Source: Bacteriovoracaceae bacterium
Lineage (GTDB): Bacteria > Bdellovibrionota > Bacteriovoracia > Bacteriovoracales > Bacteriovoracaceae
DNA: 64,000 bases
Direction: 5' to 3'
Assembly (NCBI GenBank): GCA_023701435.1
Contig: JAMPXB010000004.1
Coordinates: forward strand, 62,001 to 126,000
Shown here: piece after piece, positions 59,132 through 64,000 of the stretch
Numbering within the stretch: position 1 is the stretch's first letter
How the letters are laid out: every line of letters begins with the position of its first letter
The notes under the pieces: generated by a model
Told to the model about the DNA's origin: nothing
The model's input: the letters and a program-made list of their open reading frames with translations, nothing else
Databases searched by the model: none
Made by a program: the position numbers and the translations under genes

Positions 59132-59331
59132 ACTAATAGAGTAATAGGATTGAGATCATAATGACAAGAAACTCATTTACCCTACCACCTAACAAATATC
59201 AGTGGCACAAAATCCAAAATTCCAAAAGGCATAGGGGATCAGGAGCTTTTAACTGTTTGAATTATGGGGAGTAGTTAAGATTAATAAAAAGTAAGCATTT
59301 TGATACTACAATTCACCCAAGTCATATTTTT

Positions 59332-59456
59332 TCGATTTTGTTGTTGGACGTTTATCCCCGCAGCACGTTTACGGAAGAACGAAATCGAGAAAAGCCGCAA
59401 GGTCTGGACCAAAAGTTTAGGAAAAACTTTTAACAGTACCTTACGCTCTTCGGAGC
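59332..59456 (+). promoter_or_regulatory. Structured mRNA leader that hides the ribosome-binding site (candidate riboswitch or thermosensor)
   Basis: Several inverted repeats lie in order. Stem 1: TCGATTTTGTT (59332-59342) with AACGAAATCGA (59378-59388), 11 bp with one G-U. Stem 2 (outer): CGCAAGGT (59396-59403) with ACCTTACG (59438-59445), one mismatch. Stem 3 (inner): AAAAGTT (59411-59417) with AACTTTT (59425-59431), perfect. Stem 4: GCTC-TTCG-GAGC (59445-59456), an extra-stable UUCG loop that contains the GGAG ribosome-binding site of the gene at 59462. No known riboswitch class was recognised. The rest of the 59132-59331 gap shows no gene. Confidence 0.55.
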
Positions 59457-59461
59457 ATTTT

Positions 59462-60112
59462 ATGAAATTCAGTTTTTTTAGAAATGGACACATGGGTCTA
59501 GTTCTCGCCCTTTCCGTTCTAGTCTCCTGTAACCAGGATGAGTTCTTTCCAACGGAAGAATTGATCGCTGGAGCAGATGCCTATTGCGCAAAAGCTGTGG
59601 ACTTAAACTCCTGTCAACAGATGGCCGACGTTTGTCAGCCTGCCTATGAACCTTCGGCCAATGAGATTGATGAGCCGGTCTATGCCTCATGTGTGGCCAA
59701 TCCTGATCTATGGGTCACTCCACCAGATGGCAGTGATACCATAGTCGATGATGGCTCAAGTGAAACTCCAGTTGATTCCGAAGGATCAGAGGGATCTGAA
59801 GATCCAATTATTACAGATGGGTCAGGAGACCCGGTAGTTCCCGGTGACTCTTCGGACCCTGTCATCGATGATCCGGCCTCAGCTCCGGCACCAACTCTTG
59901 ATGAAGCCTTTGCTTCTAAGTGTGCCAACCTTGATGATCAGTATCTATTGGTGAAGAAGATTATTAAGAAGAAGAAAGTAGTTAATGTGGTTTCAAAAGT
60001 TAAAGTCTGTCACATGACTGGCAATGGATCCTCTCACACTATTGTGATTGCTTGTCCGGCCTTAAAGGCCCATGCCAAACATGACGATTATCTAGGAGCC
60101 TGTTCACTGTAA
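59462..60112 (+). CDS. Lipoprotein with acidic linker and C-terminal Cys-His repeat-type domain
   Basis: A 216-residue lipoprotein: lipobox LVSC with Cys23 as the lipid-modified residue. The N-terminal mature part has cysteines (YCAKAVDLNSCQQMADVC). A long acidic linker rich in D, S, P, E and G follows (about residues 90-145). The C-terminus KVCHMTGNGSSHTIVIACPALKAHAKHDDYLGAC matches small domains of the form VCH...HT...KAH..HGDYLG.C seen at the ends of many secreted proteins. An upstream TTG at 59300 keeps the frame open but looks non-coding. The start at 59462 has GGAG hidden in a hairpin. Function unknown. Confidence 0.78.
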   Translation: MKFSFFRNGHMGLVLALSVLVSCNQDEFFPTEELIAGADAYCAKAVDLNSCQQMADVCQPAYEPSANEIDEPVYASCVANPDLWVTPPDGSDTIVDDGSSETPVDSEGSEGSEDPIITDGSGDPVVPGDSSDPVIDDPASAPAPTLDEAFASKCANLDDQYLLVKKIIKKKKVVNVVSKVKVCHMTGNGSSHTIVIACPALKAHAKHDDYLGACSL

Positions 60113-60148
60113 AAAAAAAGGGCCTCTACGGAGGCCCTTATTTTTTAT
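60112..60148. terminator. Bidirectional terminator with UACG loop
   Basis: GGGCCTC-TACG-GAGGCCC, a 7-bp GC stem with a UNCG-type loop, has A's before and T's after. It ends both the lipoprotein gene and the convergent ppa gene. Confidence 0.85.
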
Positions 60149-61873: not shown

Positions 61874-62942
61874 GGGTGTACCTGAATGATGAATTTAAAA
61901 AGAGTGAACTTACTTTCTTTAATGTTTCATTCATCCATTTTACATCCGAAGGTTGCGCCAAACAAAGCTTAAATCGTTTCATCTGCAAACATTTTAAGCT
62001 CAAAGAAACAAGCCTGAAGGGTCTGAGAGTGCATTCAACAAAGTACATAAGGGTCAAGTCTCCCCGGTATTGGTCATAGCCGTGAATGCCTTCATAATCG
62101 TTGATGAAATCTCCACAGCCATAAAGTATCAGTCTATTCTGATAGATCTCAATGCCCTTAGGATGATGGGAGGAATGCCCATGGATGATATCAACATTGG
62201 CCTCATCAATGAGTTTGTGGGCAAAATTGATCTGAGCCTGAGGTATCTCATATCCCCAATTTCCACTCCAATGAATGCTGACAATCACCAGATCCCCGGG
62301 ACGTCGGTATCTTTCAATTATTTGGCGCACTTCTTTGATCTGACTGTCCTTTAGCGAATAGAGAAGATGCACACCCGGAATATGCTCCTTTGCTTCCCAA
62401 CTCCAGGGAACGCCGCTGGACTCAAGACACATGGAGAAAGTCAGAACCCGTCCAGCAGGAGTTTCAAAAACTGCCGGGGCCTGTGCTTCCTCCAAAGTCT
62501 TTCCCGCACCGGAATGTGCTATTTGAAACTTCTTAAGAGAAGAAATAGTTTCAACAAGTCCTTCTACTCCCCAATCCAGAACATGATTATTAGCAAGGGT
62601 GCAGATGTCGATGCCTGCACTTTTAAGGACCGAAAGATTTTCAGGATGCATTCGGTAGTTAATCCCCTTGCCTATCATGGGTGTATCACTAGTAGTGACC
62701 GCGGTTTCAAGATTAATAATTTTAAGATCAGGGGCCTCTGCTCTCCATATTTCCAGAGCGGCTCCCCAGATATAATCATCAGCTACTTTTCGCGCAATTT
62801 TTCCATTCATTTTTTCAGCTAAAAGAACATAGTCCCGGGCGTCTTTGACATAACCTTCATAAAGCTCAGGAGAGACCGAGTGATGCAGAATCTGATCAAT
62901 TCCCCTTCCTGTCATGACATCTCCACATAAAAAAATCTTCAT
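61866..62942 (-). CDS. CapA-family metallophosphatase-fold protein
   Basis: A 358-residue CapA-type protein (poly-gamma-glutamate synthesis family). The metal-site segments are FLCGDVMTGRGIDQ, IINLETAVT, CTLANNHVLDWG, SIHWSGNWGYE and IIHGHSSHHPKGIEIY, in the family order. There is no signal peptide, so it is likely cytoplasmic. The ATG at 62942 with GGGAG upstream is used; the open frame to 63071 is extra. Divergent from the archease gene across 46 bases. Its exact reaction is unknown. Confidence 0.9.
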   Translation of the reverse strand: MKIFLCGDVMTGRGIDQILHHSVSPELYEGYVKDARDYVLLAEKMNGKIARKVADDYIWGAALEIWRAEAPDLKIINLETAVTTSDTPMIGKGINYRMHPENLSVLKSAGIDICTLANNHVLDWGVEGLVETISSLKKFQIAHSGAGKTLEEAQAPAVFETPAGRVLTFSMCLESSGVPWSWEAKEHIPGVHLLYSLKDSQIKEVRQIIERYRRPGDLVIVSIHWSGNWGYEIPQAQINFAHKLIDEANVDIIHGHSSHHPKGIEIYQNRLILYGCGDFINDYEGIHGYDQYRGDLTLMYFVECTLRPFRLVSLSLKCLQMKRFKLCLAQPSDVKWMNETLKKVSSLFLNSSFRYTLD

Positions 62943-62988
62943 GTTTCTCCCGGTCACAATTTGGTGTTTAACTTGCAAGAATAAATCC

Positions 62989-63420
62989 ATGGCGACATTA
63001 ACAGAGCAAAATACCTTTGAACTTTTCCCCCATGTGGCCGACATCGGAATAAGGGGCCAGGGACAGACCATGGAGAAGGCCTTTGAAATGGCGGCAATGG
63101 CGCTGACATCAGTGGTTACTGATCCTCAAAATGTTTCCCCTACAATTCATGTAAGGATTCACCTTGAGGAAAAAGACCCTGAACTATTGTTTCTTGATTG
63201 GATCAATTCAGTGATCTATGAAATGGACATCAAAAGGATGCTTTTTTCAGTTTATGAAGTTTCTATAAAGTCCGGAGTACTGGAGGCCCAAATCAAAGGT
63301 GAAACAGTGGATCTTCATAAGCATGATCCGGCGGTGGATATCAAAGGGGCGACGCTGACGGAACTCAAAGTGATTGACCTGAATGGACAATGGCTCGCTC
63401 AATGTGTGGTGGATGTTTAA
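62989..63420 (+). CDS. Archease (RtcB activator)
   Basis: A 143-residue archease. ELFPHVADIGIRGQGQTMEKAFEMAAMAL is the family N-terminus. The acidic metal-site residues are in FLDWINSVIYEMD and in VDLHKHDPAVDIKGATL, with LTELKV close behind. Archease helps RtcB complete its guanylylation and turn over. The next gene, 12 bases away, is rtcB, so the pair is co-expressed. The ATG at 62989 follows the divergent promoter region; the longer frame from 62914 is not needed. Confidence 0.94.
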   Translation: MATLTEQNTFELFPHVADIGIRGQGQTMEKAFEMAAMALTSVVTDPQNVSPTIHVRIHLEEKDPELLFLDWINSVIYEMDIKRMLFSVYEVSIKSGVLEAQIKGETVDLHKHDPAVDIKGATLTELKVIDLNGQWLAQCVVDV

Positions 63421-63432
63421 TGAGGATAAACG

Positions 63433-64000
63433 ATGGAACTCAATCTTTTTCAAAAAATAAATGAGACCACTTGGCAAATCAGCGCCCATGGAAACATGAG
63501 GGTACCGGCCATTATTTATGCCAGTGAAGAAATCATTCAAAATATGGACAACAAAGTCTATGAACAGCTTTGCAATGTTGCTGGTCTTCCCGGCATTGTA
63601 GACAAGGCCTATGCCATGCCTGATGCTCATTGGGGCTATGGTTTTCCCATTGGAGGTGTGGCCGCTTTTGATCCGGAACATGGTGGAGTGGTTTCTGCAG
63701 GGGGTGTCGGTTTTGATATATCCTGTGGAGTCCGGCTCCTGCATACTGGCATGAAGATAGATGAACTTCGTTCTCAGTTGCCGGCAATTGCAGATCTTCT
63801 TTATAACGCCGTCCCTTCTGGGGTGGGCAGTAAAAGCAGAATTAAACTCACCGACAAAGAGATGAAAGATATGCTCCAAGGCGGTGCCAGGTGGGCCTTG
63901 CATCAGGGCTTTGGTGAAAGTGAGGATCTTGAATTTATCGAGGAGCACGGCCACATGACAGGTGCTAGACCAGAGTACATCTCCGCTCGCGCTAAGGAGC
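63433..64000 (+). CDS. rtcB: RNA ligase RtcB (3' end outside window)
   Basis: The first 189 codons of RtcB, the GTP-dependent ligase that joins 2',3'-cyclic-phosphate or 3'-phosphate RNA ends to 5'-OH ends. D64 and H66 are in MPDAHWGYGFPIGGV, and D95 and C98 are in GGVGFDISCGVR; these match the metal-binding Asp95/Cys98 of Pyrococcus RtcB. GAGGAT precedes the ATG. The remaining histidine ligands and the guanylylated His lie beyond base 64000. It runs off the window without a stop. Confidence 0.95.
   Translation, partial: MELNLFQKINETTWQISAHGNMRVPAIIYASEEIIQNMDNKVYEQLCNVAGLPGIVDKAYAMPDAHWGYGFPIGGVAAFDPEHGGVVSAGGVGFDISCGVRLLHTGMKIDELRSQLPAIADLLYNAVPSGVGSKSRIKLTDKEMKDMLQGGARWALHQGFGESEDLEFIEEHGHMTGARPEYISARAKE

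Follow-up and report, generated by a model that had tools for sequence, protein, structure and literature searches.

The c-di-GMP-I (GEMM) riboswitch, RF01051, is a class of leader RNA in Bdellovibrio, and in other bacteria it precedes surface and motility genes. The guanidine-II riboswitch (mini-ykkC) has two units that each include ACG, and the central C-G of these units could pair mutually. The Agl-Glt gliding machinery of Myxococcus has relatives in Bdellovibrio, and to our knowledge no leader RNA is known for it; our search of the open-access literature found none. GEMM RNAs in Bdellovibrio aside, we know of no regulatory RNA for the genes by which these predators and their relatives adhere or glide.

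The leader described here lies at 59327-59461 of a window of 64,000 nucleotides, the whole stretch analyzed, from a Bacteriovoracaceae bacterium (contig JAMPXB010000004.1, positions 62,001 to 126,000). It consists of four stems, the last of which, GCUC-UUCG-GAGC, covers the ribosome-binding site of a lipoprotein gene whose ATG is at 59462. Its parts, and those of the gene that follows, are these:

59327..59342, + strand: P1 stem, 5' arm (fold; covariation of P1 among homologs)
59378..59393, + strand: 3' arm of P1 (fold; homolog comparison)
59327-59342 with 59378-59393: the 16-bp P1 stem of the computed fold
59344..59351, + strand: core repeat unit 1, UUGGACGU, near-invariant among homologs, repeat offset 17
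59361..59368, + strand: core repeat unit 2, CAGCACGU, near-invariant among homologs
59369..59375, + strand: tail of unit 2, UUACGGA in the window and NNGUUGA in most homologs
59399..59442, + strand: extended hairpin P2/P3, AAGGU.CUG...CAG.ACCUU around AAAAGUUU...AAACUUUU (fold; orthologs)
59399-59406 with 59434-59442: P2 stem of the computed fold
59411-59418 with 59424-59431: P3 stem of the computed fold
59445..59456, + strand: hairpin P4, GCUC-UUCG-GAGC, carrying the ribosome-binding site (fold; GCUC-UACG-GAGC in orthologs)
59445-59448 with 59453-59456: P4 stem arms of the computed fold, loop UUCG
59462..60112, + strand: predicted regulated gene for a 216-residue Cys-rich lipoprotein, without a Pfam match, N-terminus like that of MIDAS/CglD-like adhesin lipoproteins
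60118..60139, + strand: intrinsic-terminator-like hairpin 3' of the lipoprotein gene

The four stems, with a last hairpin holding GGAG, had been proposed in the initial annotation and are confirmed by the computed fold: 59325-59465 has a folding energy of -37.8 kcal/mol compared to -28.4 ± 3.7 kcal/mol for dinucleotide shuffles (z -2.57), 3 of 200 shuffles being equally stable. The GGAG occupies 59452-59455: the UUCG loop ends with its first G, and its remaining three bases belong to the P4 stem. The same annotation could not match the leader to a known class, naming GEMM and fluoride, and this also held. Rfam 15 at gathering thresholds gave 0 matches in the window and 0 in 12 homologous loci, the fluoride riboswitch model included, and permissive thresholds gave only chance-level matches on the leader. 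Unlike RF01051 members, the window leader and its homologs lack the GEMM core; a GEMM search of the genus found none, and as control genomes likewise gave none, this search is not informative on the absence of GEMM. A promoter scan of the window leader returned a single site, which was badly placed and not above shuffles.

Stem P1 is real and strongly supported by covariation, the check on homologous leaders that had been suggested for this locus. Among 58 distinct sequences, two-sided changes were found at 13 of the 13 tested pairs. The number of two-sided cells was 186 compared to 52 after shuffling, with a score of 0.557 compared to 0.189 for shuffled and at most 0.130 for slid controls, and sliding the structure lowered the paired fraction from 91% to 30-51%. 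This alignment was fitted to a covariance model, and two results are independent of that fit. When 3' arms were exchanged among leaders, an alignment-free swap, a leader's own arms gave -13.9 kcal/mol and permuted arms -7.7 ± 0.44 kcal/mol. For leaders found by DNA similarity alone (BLAST only), and thus not selected for pairing, the values were -14.1 and -11.2, and none of 20000 permutations was as good. Leaders from other genera, which were selected by the model, gave -12.1 for their own arms vs -7.4. RNAalifold on a MAFFT alignment showed invariant ACGU pairs only, owing to misalignment of the P1 3' arm; the P1 stem of the covariance model was written by hand to remedy this.

A plain DNA search located a second copy in the same genome, before another lipoprotein gene, and showed that most genomes of the genus carry copies too; 24 of these copies were used to build the first covariance model. 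By covariance model, 24 of 26 genus genomes carry homologs, one to four copies each, and a model made from 60 matches found the RNA in 48 of 115 sampled Bacteriovoracaceae genomes (20 of 48 genera). All matches in a phylum sample of 192 genomes fell in this family except one weak match. In a pattern scan of 84,980 named genomes, hits were confined to Bacteriovoracaceae (some of these records bear just the title "Proteobacteria") and a single Bdellovibrionales bacterium. A pattern search of viral contigs gave no match. These leaders form a real conserved structured RNA family, absent from Rfam 15 and previously uncatalogued.

A lipoprotein gene comes next in 39 of 58 genus leaders, and 16 of the other 19 are of the exbB type; in other genera a lipoprotein gene follows 32 of 41 matches, compared to 26 of 600 random places. 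In a complete locus, the lipoprotein behind the first copy of the RNA weakly matches the models for the Bdellovibrio MIDAS adhesin and for CglD; next to this adhesin-like lipoprotein come an OMP_myx_plus barrel and then a GltC-like protein. About 4 kb on, a second copy precedes MotA/ExbB, two ExbD, TPR proteins, and an FHA protein showing GltG and AgmX/PglI C-terminal matches. Another two copies stand before other lipoproteins, including that of the window. The operons resemble Agl-Glt in their matches to GltC, GltG, the ExbB/ExbD motor, and a CglD/MIDAS-type lipoprotein, but most of the gliding-protein matches are far below the NCBI equivalog cut-offs, and "gliding machinery" here means homology plus gene order. 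A Bdellovibrio mutant lacking the MIDAS adhesin Bd0875 is described in PMC11003981 as killing prey that it does not invade. One match (L171, G143:C79:6254-6311) departs from the lipoprotein/gliding pattern and lies upstream of a 619-residue membrane protein.

Since the flanking genes of the window lipoprotein gene are on the opposite strand on both sides and a terminator-like hairpin follows it, this gene appears to be transcribed alone. Its product shares with the adhesins a CNxDEF start after the lipobox, so the leader probably travelled together with the gene start here too. The C-terminus of the lipoprotein (59900-60110) carries the motif CHMTGNGSSHTI...ALKAHAKHDDYLGAC, and a 494-codon frame from a different genus of the family (G032) matches its residues 178-215 as well. 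Further along the + strand, at 62914-63999, adjacent open reading frames resemble, by eye only, archease and the RNA ligase RtcB.

Leaders of the exbB type, for example L026 8106-8306 and L108 8249-8461, carry, between RNA and exbB, a short open reading frame about 30 codons long. In 15 leaders a frame of 29-41 codons begins at the codon found at fixed distance, and in those leaders that were read through, its stop adjoins the ribosome-binding site or start of exbB. The upstream frame is joined in frame to exbB in one genome (G004), and in another (G093) the exbB leader and first codons align throughout with an adhesin leader and signal peptide. A simple history would be that leader and signal peptide were duplicated before exbB and a remnant was retained for coupling.

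In 44 of 94 leaders, 53-61 nt separate the core from the start codon that follows; these leaders span genera and include both lipoprotein genes and the open reading frame upstream of exbB, and some of the remaining distances reflect upstream in-frame or chance ATGs chosen by the script. Hairpins between P1 and the start have many stem sequences (GAGAC/GUCUC, GUGAC/GUCAC, GUAGC/GCUAC, GGGAC/GUCCU), and long leaders, the window's included, have a separate hairpin over the ribosome-binding site. This start-site hairpin varies with gene type: it is GCUC-UUCG-GAGC in the window, GCUC-UACG-GAGC in orthologs, and CUCC-nnnn-GGAG in adhesin leaders. Close orthologs retain P4 with UUCG changed to UACG, and other family members use different hairpins. 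The AAGGU/ACCUU-type stem is likewise present in three orthologs (L030, L032, L033) with a changed inner stem and in a fourth (L029) without the inner hairpin. The ribosome-binding site has a mean unpaired value of 0.33, compared to 0.39 in control genes of the same genomes (p = 0.03), computed AUG accessibility was not lower than in control genes, and no mutually exclusive on/off structure was found. Because site accessibility is only slightly below that of controls, masking of the ribosome-binding site would rest more on conservation than on energy.

Stem covariation in homologous leaders and a consistent position before functionally linked genes, both general marks of structured cis-regulatory RNAs, are thus present here. 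We consider it somewhat better than even (probability about 0.55) that these RNAs are an undescribed family of structured 5'-UTRs through which Bacteriovoracaceae control the translation of a regulon for surface adhesion and gliding; of the readings considered, this has the best support. The initial annotation had likewise proposed a leader for translational control, and the P1 covariation and the start-site hairpins support that part; the informative portion has turned out to be stem 1 and the tandem-repeat loop that it closes rather than the UUCG hairpin, and what was described there as a property of one lipoprotein gene is instead a multicopy element of a gliding/adhesion regulon.

The conserved loop inside P1 is made up of two direct repeats (about UUGNACGUNNGUUGAAG) at a spacing of 17 nt, with a core consensus of about GUUGNACGUNNNUYNAAG YUGNACGUNNGUUGA. 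Half-to-half profile similarity was 0.241 at an offset of 17 and at most 0.119 at the other tested offsets, and in one leader (L100) both copies of GUUGCACGUUUGUUGA are identical. The base before ACGU is G in one unit and C in the other, in either order, in many leaders, and C in both units in others. Outside the genus, CGU is kept in most units, the preceding bases vary, and each unit is only partly conserved. In guanidine-II RNAs each ACGR, with a purine as fourth base, forms the loop of a separate hairpin, whereas the units here stand in tandem in one large loop with U as the fourth base; the two hairpins with ACGR tetraloops are absent, and Rfam gives no match. Leaders bound by CsrA/RsmA are similar in having two sites about 17 nt apart and a structured ribosome-binding site; moreover, UUGGACGU includes GGA, and CsrA is encoded in the genome. 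We nevertheless rejected CsrA as the reader of the core, many cores having no GGA in either unit (GCACGU twice in L040, L090, L094, and L100). A second small hairpin in the loop, UCAA/UUGA, is plausible by eye and broken in many leaders, and we do not claim it.

The strongest alternative is that the core is a small-molecule aptamer of a new riboswitch class, for a cyclic dinucleotide for example, in which the CGU units would form a pseudosymmetric pocket and binding would stabilize P1. A closed stem around a near-invariant loop of nearly fixed length, placed before several functionally linked genes, is consistent with this, and the two ACGU could pair mutually in almost all genus leaders. PMC9140294 connects cGAMP made by Bd0367 with regulation of gliding prey exit in Bdellovibrio. 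The ACGU-ACGU pairing, though possible, shows no covariation, and in other genera the A varies (CCGU and UCGU units) while the opposed U is constant. The exchange of G and C before ACGU between units, and the partial conservation of each unit outside the genus, also argue against a pocket. The core resembles a recognition site present twice more than it does a single compact pocket, and we therefore rank a protein reader above an aptamer, by a small margin, and hold the aptamer to be possible but on balance unlikely.

The leader could also be a passive structure without a specific sensor, acting in RNA stability or processing or, through its last hairpin, as an RNA thermometer. The stable fold of the entire leader and the shortness of the window's last hairpin (4 bp and a stable UUCG loop) are compatible with such a role, yet conservation is highest in the loop that P1 encloses, which neither a thermometer nor a simple stabilizer needs; this conservation and that of the start-codon spacing make a passive role improbable. 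That the repeats are a DNA operator and the stem a by-product of an inverted repeat is very hard to credit: a direct-repeat pair about 17 nt apart is a common layout for DNA-binding proteins, but the P1 arms diverge widely with pairing kept, pointing to selection on pairing and not on sequence, and in adhesin leaders promoter-like sites (recognized by eye) precede the element, whose spacing to the start codon is often constant.

Tandem UUGNACGU cores were also found 9-13 nt downstream of sigma-54-like -24/-12 sites at five loci, namely L134 2648-2680 of Bdellovibrionales RBG_16_40_8 and L199, L206, L207, and L208 of genomes G204, G221, G283, and G237. Only eight sigma-54-like sites occur in the 40.5 kb (both strands) of these loci, and a reversed-pattern control gave no matches. 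L134 aligns well above shuffles with L196, which occupies the same genomic place as L206. In four of the five loci, a hairpin region containing a C-rich run comes after the core; the exception is L207. At L206 and L207, no open reading frame of at least 60 codons starts within about 280 nt on that strand. Given the missing frames and the common C-rich run, the sigma-54-linked cores of other Bdellovibrionota families are possibly small RNAs, which we offer as a lead. Tandem UUGNACGU might even be a phylum-wide Bdellovibrionota recognition module, serving as a cis leader for gliding and adhesion and elsewhere as the 5' end of sigma-54-driven small RNAs, with one dedicated RNA-binding protein or second messenger reading all of them; we find this broader proposal doubtful.

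Returning to translational control in Bacteriovoracaceae, the tandem-repeat conservation of the core suggests that the repeats would be recognized most likely by an RNA-binding protein touching both units. Recognition would alter whether the downstream hairpin hides the ribosome-binding site, and adhesins and motor would then be produced jointly; for the motor operon, the relay would be translational coupling through the small upstream open reading frame, whose stop lies at the exbB start. The leader is probably a common switch for the surface machinery of Bdellovibrio-related bacteria. An RNA family that stands before both adhesin and gliding motor genes offers a direct handle on how this machinery is switched, and its repeated core could serve directly as bait for the sensor.
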